Shown here: positions 8,930 to 47,028 of the stretch, piece after piece
Layout: each line of letters begins with the position of its first letter
Position numbering within the stretch: the first letter of the stretch is position 1
Assembly: GCA_029582265.1 (NCBI GenBank)
Contig: CM055823.1
Coordinates: forward strand, 20,890,827-20,954,826
Source: Zoroaster sp. YZ-2022
Lineage: Eukaryota; Echinodermata; Asteroidea; Forcipulatida; Zoroasteridae
Direction: 5' to 3'
DNA length: 64,000 nt
Made by a program: the position numbers and the translations under genes
Notes under the pieces: model-generated
Told to the model about the DNA's origin: nothing
The model's database searches: none
What the model saw: the letters and a program-made list of their open reading frames with translations, nothing else

Positions 8930-10237
8930 AAAAAGGCAGGAGCACAGGAGTGCACACAGTTTAGGACTATCAGTCTCATGAGTCATATCACTAAAATATT
9001 GTTGAAAGTAATACAACAAAGGATCTCGGATGCAGTAAACGGAGAAATAAGCCCTCAACAGAGTGGATTCAGGCCAGGAGTTGGAACCAGGGAAGGGATA
9101 CTTAACCTGAGGATAATTTGCGAGAGAGCACTAGCAGTACGTAAATCAGTCTATGCTTGTTTCATTGATTACAGCAAGGCATTTGATTGTGTCAAGCACA
9201 CACAGATGATGGAAGCACTAAGGGAAATTGGTATTGTAGGCAGGGATCTTCATTTTATAGCTAAACTGTACTGGAACCAAACAGGAGCGGTTAGAACTGA
9301 AAATGGGATATCTAAATCTTCATTTGAAATAAGAAGAGGAGTACGGCAAGGATGTGTTCTCTCTCCGTGTCTTTTTAACCTCTACGTGGAAAGAATTTTC
9401 AGGGAGATACAGGATTTGAAGGGTTTAAACGTTGGAGGTATCAACATTAATAATCTCAGATACGCCGATGACACGGTTCTATTTGCCGAGTCTGAGGAAG
9501 ATCTACAACATCTAATAAATGCAGTAAACAGAGAAGGAGAGAAATATGGAATGATAGTAAACTCCACTAAGACGAAGGTAATGGTAATCAGTGCAGGGCA
9601 GCCAGAGAAGATTCAGATTGTGTTGAACGGCGTGCAGCTTGAGCAAGTGGAAAGTTTTGTGTATTTGGGTCACCTTATAAATGGAGACGGAAAATGTGAG
9701 AAGGAGATAAGAAGAAGGATAGAAATAGCAAGGGGAGCATTTGAGAGTTTAGAAAAATTATTCACATCCAGAAAACTGAGTTTGGTTACCAGGAGACGTC
9801 TATCACAATGCTATGTGTGGTCGACTCTCTTATATGGATCAGAAGCATGGACAATCAGTGACAAAATGACAAAAAAGTTGTCAGCATTTGAAATGTGGAC
9901 CTACAGAAGGATGCTAAAAATCACATGGAAAGACAAAGTGAGGAATGTTGAAGTGCTGAGAAGGGTAGGAGCAGAGAGGAAATTGGTGAATGTTGTTAAA
10001 AGAAGGAAGCTGCAATTTTTTGGTCACCTTGTGAGGAAAGATGGGTTTCAACGGTTGCTCCTTGATGGCAGATTGGATAGTAAAAGGGGAGTTGGAAGGC
10101 CAAGAGACTCGTGGTCGGGAGATATTAGAGAGTGGTGCAGAACGACGTATGGTGGATGTGTCCGGATGGCACAACACAGAGGGAGGTGGAGGTCCATGAC
10201 AGCCAATCTGCTAGGAGCAGAGGACACCCATAGATAG
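8930..10237 (+). CDS. RTE-like reverse transcriptase, N-terminally truncated
   Basis: An uninterrupted frame of about 435 codons that lacks a native start; coding similarity begins before the first Met (AQECTQFRTISLMSH). RT motifs in order: QQSGFRPGVGTREG; CFIDYSKAFDCVKH (first catalytic Asp, near 9160); RRGVRQGCVLSPCLFNLY; LRYADDTVLFAES (catalytic Asp pair near 9465); then VNSTKTKVMVIS and YLGHLINGDG. The C-terminal region contains the RRMLKITWKD and GHLVRKDG motifs usual in this group. The apurinic endonuclease domain is absent. The frame has no internal stops, but without the 5' part this copy cannot mobilise itself. Family assignment as non-LTR RT is certain; the RTE clade is strongly suggested. 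Confidence 0.88.
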   Translation, partial: KKAGAQECTQFRTISLMSHITKILLKVIQQRISDAVNGEISPQQSGFRPGVGTREGILNLRIICERALAVRKSVYACFIDYSKAFDCVKHTQMMEALREIGIVGRDLHFIAKLYWNQTGAVRTENGISKSSFEIRRGVRQGCVLSPCLFNLYVERIFREIQDLKGLNVGGININNLRYADDTVLFAESEEDLQHLINAVNREGEKYGMIVNSTKTKVMVISAGQPEKIQIVLNGVQLEQVESFVYLGHLINGDGKCEKEIRRRIEIARGAFESLEKLFTSRKLSLVTRRRLSQCYVWSTLLYGSEAWTISDKMTKKLSAFEMWTYRRMLKITWKDKVRNVEVLRRVGAERKLVNVVKRRKLQFFGHLVRKDGFQRLLLDGRLDSKRGVGRPRDSWSGDIREWCRTTYGGCVRMAQHRGRWRSMTANLLGAEDTHR

Positions 10238-19060: not shown

Positions 19061-19307
19061 AACAGGAGAGAGCACCGGCACGGTGGAGGGCAATGAGTTG
19101 GCTAGCGAGTTGGCTAGCTGATGACGTCCGACTACAGATGAGTGATGTTTTGTGTAAAGCCAAGCCAGCCAAGCCCAACCTCTCCAGTTACTTTATCTGA
19201 ACTCGATTTAACTCAAATTCAGAAAAGCCTAAGGTCCACGGGAGGAATACAAATAGTCCTCTTATGTTTAAAAAAATCGCCTTTCCCGATGTAGCCCTTA
19301 CAAAGTC

Positions 19308-21016
19308 ATGTCATTAGTCAAGCCAGCTAAGCCCAACCTTTCCAAGGAGGAGCTTTTTGCTCTACGCGACATCAGACGGGACAGCTCCATCCACATCCTC
19401 ACTGCAGACAAAGGCAACGCTACAGTCATCATAGACCGATCACAATACACCGACAAGGTAAGTCACATTTTATCATCTGATTCATACCGCCCCCTCAAGA
19501 AGAACCCCATCCCATCCAAAGAGAAAAGAGTCGCTAGCCAACTCCTTGCCCTCCACCGTGCCGGTGCCCTCTCCACCCAACTCTACCGACATCTCAGACC
19601 ATCCAGCTCATCCTGCCCTAGGTTCTTTGGTCAGCCGAAGATTCACAAACCTGATGTTCCTCTCCGCCCTATCGTCGCCTCCAGAGGTCAGCTACGTACA
19701 CCACAGCCCATCATCTAGCTAAGATCCTCCGACCCTTGGTGGGTCTCACTCAGCACCATGTGTCCAACTCCGGTCAGTTCGTTGAGATCACCCGGGGCCT
19801 CACCCTTAAACCCAGCGACATCTTGGTTAGTTTTGATGTTGTCTCCTTATTCACCAATGTCCCAACTACAAAGACATGCCTCCTGGTGAAGGACAGACTC
19901 GTACAAGATCTTTCCCTTGATGATCGCACATCACTCACCCCTGACCAAATTCATGATTTGCTACTAACATGTGTCTCCTCAAATTGTTTTCAGTTTCAGG
20001 GCAAGTTCTACGAGCAGACAGCTGGGAACTCTATGGGATCTCCTCTATTCCCAGTCCTTGCTGATATTTTTATGGAAGAGTTTGAAATCTCTTCCCTCGA
20101 CACCGCCGACCTCCAACCGAAGCTGTGGCTCCGATACGCGGATGACACCTTTGTGGTTTGGCCACATAGCAGAGACACACTCCAGGAATGTCTACAACAT
20201 CTCAACCAGCAACACCCGAGCATCAAGTTTACCATGGAAACAGAAGAATACGGCAAGATCGCGTTCCTTGATGTTGGCATTTCCAGAAACCCAGACGGCT
20301 CCCTACACCACAACGTTTACAGAAAGCCCACGCACAAAGATCGGTACCTGAACCAGCGCTCCTTCCATCACTTAAGCATCAAGTCATCGGTCAACCGTAC
20401 CCTCGTACAACGCGCCTACAACATTTGTGACAAGGACAGCCTTCCCAAGGAACTACAGCACATCCGAACCACCCTCAAACACAACGGTTACAATCCCAGC
20501 AAGATCAGCACAACGAAGCCGGTTCCAAACCCCGAAAGCAAGGTAAGTAATCTAACCCTTTCTGCTTGTCTCCCCTATCTAGATTCGACGTCTCACAAAC
20601 TACAGCGCATCCTCCACTCAGCCCCCAGCAAACTCCAAGGACTTCTACACACCCACAAGGACAAACCGGACCCAAACAACAGAGTGGGAGTCTACCGGAT
20701 CCCCTGTGAGTGCGGTAAGGTGTACATTGGCGAAACAGAACGCAACCTCCCCATCAGATTGAAGGAACACCGAGTACACGGCCGCAGAGGAGAAGTCCGC
20801 CATCGTCAAGCACTCGCACATCAAGGACCATCAAATCGACTGGCAGGCAAATCAAATCAAATCAGAGAGGCCATCGAGATCGTCAAACACGACACCGTGC
20901 CACAGGACATCGGCTTCCACATCAGCGACATTTGGCGACCAATACTACAGACTGAAGGATCCTCTATATCCAAAGTCCACAACCCACCCCAGACTGAGGG
21001 ATCTCCTATATCCTAA
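19308..21016 (+). pseudogene. Penelope RT / GIY-YIG endonuclease, frameshifted
   Basis: The N-terminal segment has the Penelope signatures HILTADKGNATVIIDRSQYT, CPRFFGQPKIHKP and LRPIVASRG. A one-base frameshift near 19690 splits the frame; on the other side it reads ATYTTAHHLAKILRPLVG. The RT palm follows: SFDVVSLFTNVP (first Asp, about 19836), NSMGSPLFPVLADIFME, LRYADDTFVVW (about 20134) and FLDVGISRNPDGSLHHNVYR. The endonuclease begins GVYRIPCECGKVYIGETERN at about 20688, but after HGRRGE the sequence is scrambled by indels before rejoining REAIEIVKHDTV. With one frameshift and a damaged endonuclease, this copy is probably inactive but fairly young. Confidence 0.88.
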
Positions 21017-23175: not shown

Positions 23176-24390
23176 TTAAAGGATCACAGAAATAAAAACC
23201 ATTACGGCTCTTAATAAATAAATACATTTTGGAGACTTTTATGCCACTTTACAAGCCTGCCACTTTATTGGCAATTGAGTGATGTAATGCATCACGTAAT
23301 ACCGTGACGTCAGTTAAAGACCGATTTCCTAGCAATGCACAGCTGTTTGTTTGTGTGTGCACGTGTCCGATGCGCTTATGTCAAAACTCCAATATATGTG
23401 TATACATATTTTCATCCGAAATTTCCTTGAAAATATACATCATGCCTACAAGATGTGTCGTAGCAGGCTGTAGTAATACTCCTAGCGAAGGTGTAAGCCG
23501 CCATAGGTTCCCTAAAGACGAGGCACCACGAAAAATGTGGGCCACAAAAGTGCGGTTGATGAGGGCAAAATGGTTCGAGCCGTCTCCAACCAGCGTGATA
23601 CGTAGTGATCATTTTACCGCTGAAGACTTCGAAACGAGCCTTCATGGGGAATTTGGGATGTCAAAGGCACCTAGACTCAAGAAAACTTCGATTTCAACGA
23701 AAATAAAGAAGCCTGTGAATCCTTGAAACGACAAGCTAAAGCGACGAAGCGATGCTTCGTTAAAACATGAAAAAGTATTAAACATGAAAAAATACACTAT
23801 AACGTTAGACTAAAATAACATAAATTTTTACAACTTTTAGAAGAATTCGATGATAAAAACTGTGACTAGATTTTCCGGTCGGCGGCAATGAACACCAACG
23901 GTGCTTTTTTGCGACCTTCGTATTTTGATATTTTCGATTTTTTTCAACCGAGTTTGGGTCACTAAATGATCGATTTCTTCACAAAGATAGCAGTTTGGTG
24001 AACGAAAATTACACATTAGATAGTTTATTAGTTACTTATTACCTCAGTAAAGTATCACAATTTCATCTGACGACGATTCAGCCATTTCTATGTTATTTTC
24101 CAGCGTGGGCAATATAAGCGCAGACATGTTAATGAACGCGTTATGTAGGTGGCTGGCGTCCCCGTAAGCAAGCCTTGTTCTTTACGTGACGTCACACATA
24201 GAGATGTTCAGGATGCAGTGCAAATGGCCCCTTTTAGGGGCGTGTTAATCGGCGCCGGCATTCTCTTTGGAAAAGCTTCAAATTATAAGTAGCTCGCTAA
24301 AAATCTATGAGCTATTTATTTTTTATCATTAAAAATACCATATTTTAGTATCTCAATGGCATTTACGTCTCTATTTCTGTGGTCCTTTAA
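23176..24390 (+). mobile_element. 1.2-kb element with inverted ends enclosing a THAP ORF
   Basis: TTAAAGGATCACAGAAATA at 23176 is matched at 18 of 19 positions by the reverse complement of the sequence ending at 24390. The only ORF inside encodes a THAP domain, the DNA-binding module of P-element-type transposases. I infer a non-autonomous P-like or THAP-capturing element inside intron 1 of the peptide gene. No unambiguous target-site duplication is seen (CGAT occurs close to both ends). Confidence 0.5.
23442..23726 (+). CDS. THAP-domain protein, zinc ligand lost
   Basis: The ATG at 23442 is chosen because the THAP zinc finger starts right at it: MPTRCVVAGCSNTPSEGVSR supplies the first Cys pair. 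RKMWATKVRLMRAKWFEPSP gives the conserved Trp and P positions, and SVIRSDHFTAEDFE corresponds to the usual SxxCSxHFxxxxF. The third ligand Cys is Arg here (CGT, one transition from TGT), so the zinc site is probably broken. The C-terminal AVPTIF-like box is replaced by APRLKKTSIST. At 94 residues it is a THAP domain and short basic tail only, with no transposase catalytic region. Further exons are possible but none was identified. Confidence 0.7.
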   Translation: MPTRCVVAGCSNTPSEGVSRHRFPKDEAPRKMWATKVRLMRAKWFEPSPTSVIRSDHFTAEDFETSLHGEFGMSKAPRLKKTSISTKIKKPVNP

Positions 24391-34631: not shown

Positions 34632-34692
<61 letters not shown>

Positions 34693-34711
34693 TATATATA
34701 CATGTATATAT

Positions 34712-34776
<65 letters not shown>

Positions 34777-34834
34777 CATATACATACATATACATACATA
34801 TACATACATATACATGCATATACATATATATACA

Positions 34835-34902
<68 letters not shown>

Positions 34903-34946
34903 CACACACACACACACACATATATATATACATATATATATATATA
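34632..34946. repeat. TA/CA compound microsatellite
   Basis: (AT)n interrupted by (AC)n and (ATAC)n stretches. It abuts the degenerate Penelope-like element. Confidence 0.95.
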
Positions 34947-35041
34947 GATCAGGTATAGTTCACTGCGGAACCAAGATAGTGCTCTACATTGAAGTAGCAG
35001 AATAAGTAAATAGACGAACTACTCGGTGGGTGAGAACATTA

Positions 35042-35141
35042 TTTGAGATTGTATGTATAACCACTCGAAGATACATTCAACGAAGCGACACCACCATATC
35101 AAGAAGCGTTACACAAGAGTGGTTATACATACAATCTCAAA
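35042..35141. repeat. 24-bp perfect hairpin
   Basis: 35042-35065 and 35118-35141 are exact reverse complements (GAGATTGTATGTATAACCAC within), separated by 52 nt, inside the 5' part of the Penelope-like relic. Confidence 0.85.
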
Positions 35142-35219
35142 TACACGCCTACACCGCATAAAGTAAATCACAACCGCAATCGTAATATAATATGGTTTAA
35201 CCCCCATACAACAAACGGC

Positions 35220-35700
35220 CAAGAATAACATAGGAAGAGAATTTATTAACCTGATCGACAAATGTTTTCCGACCAGTCACAAACTGAAGAAAATATTTAA
35301 CAGAAACACAATAAAACTAAGCTACAGCTGCATGCCTAATCAAACAAATCATAGAGCGGACATAACAAAAGCCATCCTAAAGAAACCACACAACCGGAAC
35401 ATGACAACACCACAAAAACGTGTAACTGCAGGAAGAAGAACGAATGTCCACTAGAGGGAGATTGCCTGACTAAAGAGATTGTCTACCAGCTACGATCACC
35501 ACGAAAGACACAACGAGACTTATGTAGGACTGACAGCAACTGAATTTAAGACCAGATGGAGGAATCACAAGACGTCATTTACTACACGAAAACGGAAGAA
35601 CGATACACAACTCAGTAAATACCTGTGGCAGTTAAAGAGACAAACAAGAAGAATATTCAATTACGTGGAAAATCATCGCCAAGAGCTAAACCTACACTAA
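35220..35700 (+). pseudogene. Penelope-type GIY-YIG endonuclease relic
   Basis: Broken frames read [20 protein letters not shown], then [19 protein letters not shown], a Cys-rich linker [20 protein letters not shown], and finally HNETYVGLTATEFKTRWRNH with TQLSKYLWQLKR. The last segment is the YIG-x10-R-x3-H core of a GIY-YIG nuclease as used by Penelope-like retroelements. There are frameshifts between segments (for instance after IVYQ), so no functional product is expected. It clearly differs from the Penelope copy at 19-21 kb. Confidence 0.7.
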
Positions 35701-35899
35701 TCTCACGAAGAGATGCAATTTATGCATTATCAGAAACATTTAATTATTACCAAACCGCACATGGCAACCTTAAATAAACGTAATGAACTTATATCAACAT
35801 GCAGACACCAACGAAAACACATTCTGAGATATAATTAGATATACATCACTAAACACACACACATACATATACTTGTAAACCACACCCGATGCTTCAGTG

Positions 35900-35973
35900 T
35901 ATATGGTGATTAACTGATGAGTGGATCGACATCATGTCGACCTACGAAACAAATTTGTATTAAGACCCATATG
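35900..35973 (+). ncRNA. Type I hammerhead ribozyme
   Basis: The complete catalytic core is present: CTGATGA at 35914-35920 and GAAA at 35946-35949. Helix II is 35921-35945 (GTGG/CCTAC-type base, one A-C mismatch, then TCGACA/TGTCGA, 3-nt loop). Helix III is ACA/TGT closed by AATT. The cleavage triplet is GTA at 35957-35959. Helix I is TTAA/TTAA (35910-35913 with 35960-35963), a 3x3 internal loop, then six more pairs (35901-35906 with 35967-35972) and a G-T wobble. All invariant positions are canonical. Penelope-like elements are known carriers of hammerheads, and this one sits just before the terminal repeat. Cleavage is predicted after 35959 in a plus-strand transcript. Confidence 0.85.
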
Positions 35974-36002
35974 TTCTCACCCACCGAGTAGTTCGTCTAT
36001 TT

Positions 36003-36005
<3 letters not shown>

Positions 36006-36065
<60 letters not shown>
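36006..36065. repeat. (TA)n microsatellite
   Basis: Pure TA repeat abutting the right end of the Penelope-like relic; a TA-rich tract also abuts its left end. Confidence 0.95.
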
Positions 36066-36342: not shown

Positions 36343-36484
36343 CTGTAATGTGACACAAACACACTGATACCAGTTATATACCAGAAATGGGTGTGCTCAG
36401 GATCTTGGATTTATCAAATGTCAAATGAGCTCAAAATCCTGTAACAATTGCACCCCTCTGCTCTGCTTTGACCTAAGAACAATT

Positions 36485-36691
36485 CAGTCTTTGTAGGCCT
36501 ATCATTTCAGTCTTTGTAGGCCTATCATTTCAGTCTTTGTAGGCCTATCATTTCAGTCTTTGTAGGCCTATCATTTCAGTCTTTGTAGGCCTATCATTTC
36601 AGTCTTTGTAGGCCTATCATTTCAGTCTTTGTAGGCCTATCATTTCAGTCTTTGTAGGCCTATCATTTCAGTCTTTGTTGGCCTATCATTT
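36485..36691 (+). repeat. 23-bp minisatellite, 9 copies
   Basis: Unit CAGTCTTTGTAGGCCTATCATTT starting at 36485 and every 23 bp to 36669. The last copy has TTGG for TAGG. Each unit contains the palindrome AGGCCT. Confidence 0.95.
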
Positions 36692-36773
36692 TCCATAGGC
36701 CTATAAGTCTACTATAAATTATCCATGTCATCTGAAATTTCATGATTTAAAAAAGAACAATCAGCTTACTTAA

Positions 36774-38072
36774 AGGGACAACATTGTCATGATCACGGCA
36801 GACTTTCCATTGTCATGATCACGGCAGACTTTCCATTGTCATGATCACGGCAGACTTTCCATTGTCATGATCACGGCAGACTTTCCATTGTCATGATCAC
36901 GGCAGACTTTCCATTGTCATGATCACGGCAGACTTTCCACTGTCATGATCACCGCAGACTTTCCACTGTCATGATCACGGCAGACTTTCCACTGTCATGA
37001 TCACCGCAGACTTTCCACTGTCATGATCACGGCAGACTTTCCATTGTCATGATCACGGCAGACTTTCCATTGTCACGATCACGGCAGACTTTCCACTGTC
37101 ACGATCACGGCAGACTTTCCACTGTCACGATCACGGCAGACTTTCCATTGTCACGATCACGGCAGACTTTCCATTGTCACGATCACGGCAGACTTTCCAT
37201 TGTCACGATCACGGCAGACTTTCCACTGTCACGATCACGGCAGACTTTCCACTGTCATGATCACGGCAGACTTTCCATTGTCATGATCACGGCAGACTTT
37301 CCATTGTCATGACCACAGCAGACTTTACATTGTCATGATCACAGCAGACTTTCCATTGTCATGATCACGGCAGACTTTCCATTGTCATGACCACAGCAGA
37401 CTTTCCATTGTCATGATCACAGCAGACTTTCCATTGTCATGACCACGGCAGACTTTCCATTGTCATGATCACGGCAGACTTTCCATTGTCATGATCACGG
37501 CAGACTTTCCATTGTCATGACCACAGCAGACTTTACATTGTCATGATCACAGCAGACTTTCCATTGTCATGATCACGGCAGACTTTCCATTGTCATGATC
37601 ACGGCAGACTTTCCATTGTCATGATCACGGCAGACTTTCCATTGTCATGATCATGGCAGACTTTCCATTGTCATGACCACAGCAGACTTTACATTGTCAT
37701 GATCACAGCAGACTTTCCATTGTCATGATCACGGCAGACTTTCCATTGTCATGATCACAGCAGACTTTACATTGTCATGATCACAGCAGACTTTCCATTG
37801 TCATGATCACGGCAGACTTTCCATTGTCATGATCACGGCAGACTTTCCATTGTCATGATCACAGCAGACTTTCCATTGTCATGATCACAGCAGACTTTCA
37901 ACAGGGCATAGAATCAGTGTCCTACTTTAAGATGAATATACTGACTAAAATGACTGGCTCATTTATGCAGCAGCAACGATAATATGACATTATCATGTGG
38001 GTATTATTTTCAGTCACCGAGTTAATCTAAAACTAGCACTATGATTCCATGCTTTTTTGATCGATTGTCCCT
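36774..38072. mobile_element. MITE-1 copy a, swollen by a 26-bp minisatellite
   Basis: The termini AGGGACAA...TTGTCCCT are flanked by TTAA at 36770-36773 and 38073-38076. The core (CAGGGCATAGAATC, AAGATGAA, CTCATTTATGCAGCAGCAAC, TTCAGTCACCGAGTTAATCT) matches copies at 47609, 52455 and 62261, which are about 215 bp when not expanded. Here a subterminal segment has been amplified to over 1.1 kb. Confidence 0.8.
36790..37900 (+). repeat. 26-bp minisatellite, about 43 copies, within MITE-1 copy a
   Basis: Unit TGTCATGATCACGGCAGACT plus TTCCAT. Variants (cacgatcac, catgaccaca, cactg) occur in blocks and as higher-order groups, showing successive rounds of unequal exchange. Each typical unit contains TGATCA palindromes. 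It gives a spurious open frame at 37049-37312. Confidence 0.95.
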
Positions 38073-45285: not shown

Positions 45286-45437
45286 TCCACTGGTTATTGA
45301 ATTCAATCCAAGGCAGGGGTTCATAGTTATACAGACCCAGCTGTTGATCTATCAAATGATTTTAAATGATAAAGGTACTATGCCAGCATGTGTAATACTT
45401 ATCAAATGGTGCTGTGTGGTGAATGCATCTAAAATGT

Positions 45438-45524
45438 ACATGGTACTGCTACATGTATCTACACATTAGCTGTGTAGATACATGGTACTGCTACATGTAT
45501 CTACACATTAGCTGTAGATACCGA
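45438..45524 (+). repeat. Left part of the 42-bp minisatellite
   Basis: Two units of GTAGATACATGGTACTGCTA + CATGTATCTACACATTAGCT. The array resumes at 47029 after the LINE, so the LINE lies within the array. Each unit is a near-perfect hairpin (GTGTAGATACATG / CATGTATCTACAC). Confidence 0.85.
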
Positions 45525-47028
45525 CCAGTAGCAAATTTAAAGTACCTTGGAAAAACAATCGAGCGAGTTGTTTCATCACGGATCTCTGACCATGTTCGTG
45601 CTAATAACCTGTCGGACACATTTCAGTCAGCCTACAAACCATTTCATGGAACGGAAACTGCTCTTCTTCGCGTCAACAATGACATTTTATCTGCCATGGA
45701 TGAGGGGAAAATCACTGCATTAGTTTTGTTAGACTTAAGCGCCGCTTTTGACACTGTCGATCATAAAATCCTTCTCTCCCGCCTTCAATATCATCTTGGA
45801 ATACATGACACAGCCCTGGATTGGTGTAAGTCCTACCTTTTAAATAGGCCTCAGCATGTTTGTATTGGTAACGCTATCTCCGAGCCTGTTACTCTTGACT
45901 ATTCTGTACCCCAAGGCTCTGTGCTCAGCCCACAGTGGTTTACTGTTTATACCTTTCCAGTTCGTGATATCATTTTGAAGTATGATTTAAATTACCATGT
46001 TTACGCTGATGACACGCAGCTTTACATTACTTTTAAATCTTCTCAAGAACCTGCTGATTCCTGCATTAAAACACTGGAGAAATGTATTCAAGAGATTCGA
46101 AGTTGGATGAGACAAAACTTCCTGAAATTGAACGATGAAAAAAACAGAATTTGTTCTATTTGGATCACGTCAGCAATTGTCTAAAGTTTCTCTTCCATTT
46201 ATTACAATTGGTGACTTCGCAGATAACCCCTCATTACATGCACATAATTTGGGTGTTATATTTGACTCGACAATGACTTTAAAACCACATATCTCCAACA
46301 TTGTTCGTGATATCATCATTTCATATCAGAAATATAAGCGAATTAGGAAATACTTGAATAAAAGTGCTGCTGAACAAATTATACATGCATTTGTCACATC
46401 ACGGCTCGATAACGGAATGCTCTCCTTTACGGTCTTCCGCAGAATCAAATATCTCGTCTTCAGCACATACAAAACACAGCAGCTCGTGTTGTGACTTTGT
46501 CCAGAAAGTCATGCCATATCACGCCAATCTTGAAAGAACTGCACTGGCTTCCTGTTTCACAGAGAATTGTTTTTAAACTTATGCTAATTGTTCACAAATC
46601 TTTTAATAACATTGCTCCAATTTATATTTCTGAACTACTTAAAGTCTACACTCCATCACGCAATTTGCGCTCCAGCAACATGTCACTCCTCAAGGAACCA
46701 ACTTCAAAACGGAACTGGGGTGATAGGTCGCTTTTCTGTCGCAGCTCCGAGACTCTGAATCATCTTCCAACTAAACTCAAATCTTGTCATAGTATAACCA
46801 GATTCAAGTCGATGCTTAAAACTCATCTTATGTCACAACTCTTCAAAGATGATGTATATTTGTAATTGCATTGTAGGTACATGTATCTCGGTACATAATT
46901 TGTTTTCCCTATGCTATCATTGTATATTGTTTGTATTAATGTTTTTTCTTTGTTTCCGCGCCTTGAGCGCCCAGCAGGGTGGATATGTGCGCGCTAAAAA
47001 TCTTTATTATTATTATTATTATTATGTA
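45525..47028 (+). pseudogene. L2-like (CR1-group) LINE, 5'-truncated and frameshifted
   Basis: RT segment: YRPVANLKYLGKTIERVVSS, FQSAYKPFHGTETALLRVNN, LVLLDLSAAFDTVDHKILLS (catalytic Asp), VPQGSVLSPQWFTVY and YHVYADDTQLYITF (catalytic pair near 46005). Frameshifts near 46140 and 46420 break the frame. The C-terminal part HITPILKELHWLPVSQRIVF, LRSSNMSLLKEP and LKTHLM is the standard ending of this group. The 3' end GCGCCTTGAGCGCCCAGCAG...GTGCGCGCTAAAAATCTTTA and (TTA)n matches the SINE tails. The copy is dead, lacks the endonuclease, and lies inside the 42-bp minisatellite. Confidence 0.88.

Follow-up and report, generated by a model that had tools for sequence, protein, structure and literature searches.

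The window analysed here, a 64,000-nucleotide stretch of the Zoroaster sp. YZ-2022 genome, contains a type I hammerhead motif on its plus strand, identified by sequence reading, a pattern scan, pairing and a chance test. The motif lies near the 3' end of the remnant of a Penelope-like element (PLE), which is flanked by TA-rich repeats. The features of the locus, in window coordinates, are as follows.

34632..34946, no strand: TA/CA simple-repeat tract, left edge
34947..35039, minus strand: inverted copy of the family 3' terminus, forming an outward-facing left end
35040..35066, minus strand: 27-nt perfect inverted copy of 35117-35143, touching the left terminus (snap-back junction)
35191..35454, plus strand: PLE frame remnant, end of the reverse transcriptase (RT) or linker
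35470..35700, plus strand: PLE endonuclease region remnant, in a different frame
35900..35973, plus strand: type I hammerhead motif
35900..35913, plus strand: helix I 5' strand, including the internal loop letters 35907-35909
35914..35920, plus strand: core CUGAUGA (CTGATGA), read directly
35921..35945, plus strand: helix II, nine pairs and one A.C mismatch, with a 5-nt loop
35946..35949, plus strand: core GAAA, read directly
35949..35958, plus strand: helix III palindrome ACAAATTTGT
35957..35959, plus strand: cleavage triplet GUA (GTA), read directly
35960..35973, plus strand: helix I 3' strand
35974..36006, plus strand: element 3' tail, ending ACTT ahead of (TA)n
36007..36065, no strand: (TA)n tract, right edge

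Type I hammerheads are recognized by the core sequences CUGANGA and GAAA, an A15.1-U16.1 pair, a residue other than G at position 17 (H17) and a G10.1-C11.1 pair. All of these were found at 35900-35973, and the original prediction had been right that every core position is present, with CTGATGA at 35914-35920, GAAA at 35946-35949 and GTA at 35957-35959. Three helices surround the core. Helix I consists of an inner part of 4 bp (35910-35913 with 35960-35963), a 3x3 internal loop (35907-35909/35964-35966) and an outer part of seven pairs (35900-35906 with 35967-35973), the outermost being U-G. The arms of helix II (35921-35930 and 35936-35945) form ten layers, nine of them paired, which run outward from the core as G-C, U-A, G.U, G-C, the A.C mismatch and five pairs, up to the 5-nt loop. 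Helix III is weak, with just C-G and A-U beyond A15.1-U16.1 and the loop AAUU, i.e., diminished but present, in keeping with the reduced or absent helix III that marks PLE hammerheads. Since helix I is the open one, the order of the motif is that of type I. The pairs written out in this way agree with the earlier description of one helix II mismatch and a 3x3 helix I loop, which had overlooked that helix III is palindromic and that the element has inverted ends facing outward. We conclude that 35900-35973 is a genuine type I hammerhead motif. The ATG within its core opens just 24 codons, as read by eye.

Between the coding remnants at 35191-35454 and 35470-35700 the frame changes, which bears out the claim that the coding part of this copy is broken. 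The downstream remnant matched eight database proteins (best E 8e-14), one of which, P0008, matched the upstream remnant as well, and by this similarity the locus carries the RT plus GIY-YIG endonuclease (EN) frame of a PLE. A Pfam search of the two remnants returned no relevant domain and named neither an RT nor a GIY-YIG; we take their PLE and GIY-YIG identity from characteristic motifs. A sister copy elsewhere in the genome has a 643-codon stop-to-stop PLE frame, the first ~20 codons of which are flanking repeat and the C-terminus of which is as in the window. This frame stops at the start of the 177-nt query described below, just upstream of the sister's own ribozyme, and the motif is ~60 nt downstream of the RT-EN frame end as placed in sister copies. 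With coding remnants upstream and a sister frame that stops before the ribozyme, the predicted location at the 3' end of a PLE was confirmed; the terminal region beside the RT-EN frame is also where PLE hammerheads are expected.

A 36-nt perfect inverted repeat pairs 35004-35039 with 35971-36006 and is directly adjoined by the 27-nt one (35040-35066/35117-35143). The left flank is the reverse complement, with two mismatches, of a longer 3' end found in the sisters, which places the inverted left terminus at 34947-35039. The element consequently spans 34947-36006, with TA-rich repeats on both sides and 3' ends facing outward at both edges. Inverted pLTR and tail ends of this type are characteristic of PLEs, and the element is a 5'-truncated insertion. 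No second ribozyme on the same strand was found in the window, where the copy is 5'-truncated, or in five longer loci (L071-L075). Two adjacent tandem repeat arrays, of 23 bp and 26 bp, lie just 3' of the element (36434-36714, and 36651-37704 onward). The window also contains a second PLE-like reverse transcriptase (19272-21016, plus strand; RVT_1 2.9e-07), which is spread over two overlapping frames and has an endonuclease-like C-terminus; there was no hammerhead near it among the scan rows listed. Two other reverse transcriptase frames (RVT_1; 8930-10237 and 45423-46184) and a THAP-domain frame (23283-23726) were also seen.

A strict scan of the window returned one further, weaker candidate, on the minus strand and with helices of 4/2/1 bp, while among the 12 best rows per strand of a relaxed scan there were others, two of them equal to the motif in summed score but lacking any helix III pair. 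When contiguous helices of at least 4/4/2 bp were demanded, one match was observed and the 150 windows simulated with an order-1 Markov model had none; with the minimum lowered to 3/3/1 bp, one was observed compared to a mean of 0.15 in the simulations. Outside the genome, a pattern search of prokaryote genome contigs had no match, and a hammerhead-like pattern was found at 30 loci in viral contigs; a protein-level search of viral contigs confirmed no relatives. Rfam searches of 401 and 101 bases, run at the gathering score and again with E values allowed up to 10, gave no hammerhead family, so that the match foreseen by the original prediction was absent. A genome-wide search with RF00163 also gave no match and was uninformative, as the control matched in 0 of 14 genomes. 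Because PLE hammerheads are described, in parts of PMC6155905 and PMC7761336, as minimal, with helix III or tertiary contacts missing, the silence of Rfam counts just weakly against a ribozyme.

For the hammerhead, the calculated folding energy was -14.7 in the drawn form and -15.1 when the core was kept open, compared to -16.0 for a competing fold. The drawn hammerhead, which lies 0.9-1.3 kcal/mol above the competing fold, is not the minimum-energy fold, and the stability of the region is unremarkable (shuffle z -0.81). Compared to canonical type I ribozymes, a ten-layer helix II places loop II a long way from the internal loop of helix I, and canonical loop contacts with helix I are therefore unsupported. 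The earlier suggestion that the 3x3 loop makes the contacts of a fast ribozyme falls for this reason, and also because PLE hammerheads are described without tertiary contacts (parts of PMC6155905 and PMC7761336).

The 1.0-Gb assembly (the window being in G000:C8) was searched with a 177-nt query covering 35830-36006, resulting in at least 41 matches, window included (40 of 60 candidates scored). Among the matches listed, 38 (the window and 37 sisters) span at least positions 2-175 of the query, and three are partial. The element had been called dying, which fits the window copy and not the family, given at least 37 other near-full matches, one with a long frame. We inspected 39 places (L031-L069, where L031 is the window and L069 is partial). 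The core, inner helix I, helix III and the cleavage triplet were all kept in 33 of them, window included, and the other six (L059, L061, L065-L068) had deletions, insertions or inversions. Small indels in outer helix I were present in eight rows (L036, L050, L051, L053, L055, L057, L060 and L064). The longer 3' end seen in sisters adds 57 nt and ends CTGATC ahead of (TA)n; long ends were found at 23 of the 39 places, short ends at 14 and other ends at two, with (TA)5 at most 110 nt downstream in 35.

Upstream, 28 of the 39 places extend past 35784 into PLE coding sequence. Eight short copies, ~170-280 nt long, begin at 35784-35826 (L034, L035, L041, L045, L048, L050, L066 and L068); L046 and L064 were left out of this count because coding sequence resumes further upstream, and their common upstream junction means that they are not independent. 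Long and short copies have common 3' ends. The eight starts, which fall within 43 nt (35784-35826 equivalents), resemble a preferred 5' end. At L114-L119, we observed solo copies confined to the final ~60 nt of the PLE (ACTTATTCC...CTGATC) in or beside (TA)n tracts, several of which start approximately where other copies stop. At L065, L067, L068, L087, L089 and L104, the ribozyme or the sequence next to it contains small inversions and head-to-head joins, including a 12-nt inverted copy two bases past the cleavage site in L067. A concentration of inverted-arm junctions in the ribozyme was considered and set aside, as it involved just ~7 arms.

To describe variation across the sisters, three selections were made from 42 rows: 37 rows, leaving out the segmental duplicate L057 and the partial L063b, L068b, L069 and L070b; 30 rows, leaving out in addition L059, L061 and L064-L068, a set chosen after viewing the alignment; and 38 rows for counting events, leaving out only the four partial rows. 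For the 30-row set, none of the 49 sites in the core, helix I and helix III varied, compared to 24 of 103 flank sites (p = 6e-5, indels ignored). In the 37-row alignment, the corresponding numbers were 12 of 49 and 27 of 103, and when distinct events were counted over 38 rows with indels included, there were 13 in the 49 ribozyme sites and 32 in the 103 flank sites (p = 0.75), with a further 8 in the 25 sites of helix II. These data do not support selection on the ribozyme, because the event count over 38 rows showed it to be as variable as the flanks and because the 30-row set had been chosen post hoc, without the rearranged copies and with indels uncounted. Outside three rearranged copies, the core, helix I and helix III have a single substitution (at 35900), and most events there are indels. 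Position 35940 is A in the window copy and G in the other 36 of 37 rows.

Pairing was assessed in 31 places, rearranged copies left out, which gave 22 distinct rows. In these, 95.1% of cells were paired, the values for slid partners being 28.7-45.7%, and letter shuffles paired equally well. All pairs of helix I and helix III were invariant. Four helix II pairs show one-sided variation yet remain paired, the A.C layer of this helix is G-C in six rows, and ten rows have lost the pair 35929/35937. Changes on both sides of a pair numbered zero among the 22 distinct rows, the sisters being too similar for a real covariation test. The compensatory changes predicted for helices I and II were not observed in these rows.

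A second hammerhead motif, GTTGT-CTGATGA-TCGCATAACGCGT-GAAA-CTCGGAGTT-ACAAC with variants, was present in the fetched loci, with 14 occurrences over overlapping loci. Its helix I is different but self-complementary, which lends independent support to the hammerhead kind. A second short hammerhead motif (GTTGTCTGATGATCGCATAACGCGTGAAACTCGGAGTTACAAC) was also observed beside several PLE copies at (TA)n (L072:5483, L073, L117 and L119). At position 1452 of L077 (reverse complement), an interrupted copy of this GTTGTCTGATGATCGCATAACGCGTGAAACTCGGAGTTACAAC motif abuts the 5' part of the window PLE family and is preceded by apparent PLE coding sequence. The GTTGTCTGATGATCGCATAACGCGTGAAACTCGGAGTTACAAC motif is probably another PLE family serving as a landing site.

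If the upstream fragment of a cut RNA had served as template, insertions ending at 35959 would be expected. Among the matches listed, 0 of 41 end there; such ends would be visible, because the 177-nt query spans the site, with low scorers possibly missing from the matches listed. A query starting at 35960 gave at least 41 matches (40 of 77 candidates scored), of which 30 rows reach the start of the query: 28 with start 1 among L084-L113, L111 with start 3, and one partial. Most of these 30 rows are places already found with the 177-nt query. Among the matches listed, 29 of the 30 continue upstream past the cleavage site, and the sole possible start at the site is L103 (1 of 30), which departs within 35956-35960; its TGTA is perhaps microhomology, and a degenerate continuation is also possible. 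Insertion ends among the matches listed do not, then, cluster at the cleavage site on either side, and nearly all of the insertions checked were made from RNA uncut at this site. For an Anolis PLE, parts of PMC11167929 report that ribozyme mutants still insert, that in vitro the substrate is mainly unprocessed RNA and that no RNA ends were found at the ribozyme site.

As far as published accounts describe them, PLE hammerheads resemble the window motif in their type I order, their place in the terminal part of a PLE with an endonuclease and a weak helix III suited to dimers. They differ in that they usually lack helix III, whereas the window motif has two pairs, an AAUU loop and a 10-nt palindrome; helix II of the window motif is long in comparison, and the ribozymes usually stand in tandem within the element, whereas the window has one copy. 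Hammerheads of PLEs were reportedly treated by Cervera and De la Pena in 2014 and by Lunse et al. in 2017. That type I hammerheads occur in PLEs is published (parts of PMC11167929), and the original prediction was correct to call this established. According to the same parts of PMC11167929, the ribozyme of PAc (Poseidon) from Anolis carolinensis is active with its protein, and this protein cleaves both strands of AT-rich DNA and extends them. PAc and the window family are both PLEs with a hammerhead, AT-rich targets and insertion from uncut RNA. However, the PAc frame starts in ribozyme stem II, while the likely frame start is elsewhere in two copies here; the PAc ribozyme cuts only with its protein. 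Rotifer Penelope elements have inverted pLTRs, tails and palindromic junctions, as described in parts of PMC3846280. Those of Adineta vaga share with the window element the inverted terminal repeats, a 3' tail of ~31 bp and palindromes at head-to-head junctions; unlike the multicopy window family, they have very few copies, and they show 8-10 bp target duplications, whereas none was recognized by eye at the window element (parts of PMC3846280).

Three other explanations of the motif were weighed. A chance match to the hammerhead core would fit the missing Rfam match, the slightly better competing fold and a conservation that is not above the flanks, but it is hardly credible given that 150 simulated windows gave no match at the same stringency and that the motif sits where PLE hammerheads have been reported (parts of PMC11167929 and PMC7761336). 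It is also very unlikely that the motif belongs to a metazoan retrozyme and not to a PLE. Retrozymes, as described in parts of PMC7229834, share the type I hammerhead and short helix III, the two-pair helix III with its tetraloop resembles invertebrate retrozyme hammerheads, and the eight copies starting at 35784-35826 are short enough, at ~170-280 nt. However, unlike the PLE found here, retrozymes consist of small non-coding units of 150-450 bp repeated in tandem, and many of them have canonical loop contacts; the window holds no tandem array of the motif, 28 of 39 places reach upstream into PLE coding sequence, and long and short copies share their 3' ends.

A third explanation, to which we give somewhat less than an even chance, is that this family carries the motif as a structural relic, able to form but with its cleavage having no part in insertion. 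The stretch would then be carried along as terminal sequence, or as an RNA structure for protein binding or for the start of reverse transcription. This agrees with the insertion record, where 29 of the 30 listed matches that reach the site from the 3' side run past it and 0 of 41 end there on the 3' side, with the continued insertion of Anolis ribozyme mutants (parts of PMC11167929), and with ribozyme conservation no higher than that of the flanks. It is harder to square with the 33 of 39 places that preserve the complete core together with inner helix I, helix III and the triplet, and with the near lack of single-letter substitutions in these parts (with three rearranged copies set aside, the sole one is at 35900), a contrast that was noticed post hoc.

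We consider it likely that the motif is a type I PLE hammerhead ribozyme, located just past the RT-endonuclease frame, and that the plus-strand transcript is able to cut itself. This transcript would fold into the hammerhead, with a predicted cut between 35959 and 35960. Cutting by a monomer should be slow, because helix III has two pairs beyond A15.1-U16.1, and two kinds of aid can be envisaged. In the first, two ribozymes would join their palindromic helix III as a 10-bp helix. ACAAATTTGT (35949-35958) is identical to its own reverse complement, and the calculated energies were +1.3 kcal/mol for the monomer hairpin compared to -8.2 kcal/mol for the two-molecule duplex of 10 bp. Since helix III is palindromic, dimers should be firmer than monomers, and these energies suggest that a dimer is likely the better form of this ribozyme. 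With a single ribozyme in the window, any dimer must form between RNAs. Cutting as dimers has been reported for newt hammerheads and is thought possible for those of PLEs (parts of PMC6155905 and PMC7761336), and the helix III loop is palindromic in one axolotl family of retrozymes (parts of PMC7229834). In the second, the element protein would assist, as in the Anolis relative, whose ribozyme showed no cleavage without added protein (parts of PMC11167929); by this analogy, protein is a possible alternative aid to cutting. The protein of the window copy is broken, so such help would come from elsewhere. Overall, the sequence suggests that the motif can probably cut, perhaps just as a dimer or with protein.

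Insertion of the element would have proceeded by target-primed reverse transcription begun on both target strands in TA-rich DNA, with the two cDNAs meeting at the snap-back junction near 35066. With 3' ends that face outward at each edge and TA-rich DNA around it, the element fits priming on both target strands, and two-sided priming with a snap-back join would be the simplest reading of the element ends. The ribozyme belongs to a known kind, and both its helix III palindrome and the two-ended element are particulars of this copy and its family.

A more speculative idea, which we regard as improbable, is that the helix III palindrome acts as a switch between monomer and dimer, making cleavage a dose-sensing brake on the PLE and not a processing step. 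Lone read-through RNAs would then stay mostly uncut and be used as insertion templates, while RNAs abundant enough for pairing through helix III, or bound by the element protein, would be cut. If true, this would explain why most copies keep a nearly complete ribozyme despite insertion from uncut RNA.

According to parts of PMC7761336, what hammerheads do in PLEs is still a mystery. The family studied here offers a natural test: a single assembly holds many similar copies with sharp ends, from which cut and uncut templates can be counted. In the record seen, almost no templates were cut, in agreement with in vitro work on the lizard PLE (parts of PMC11167929). If cleavage is a brake or a by-product, and not processing, this would settle what PLE ribozymes do not do.
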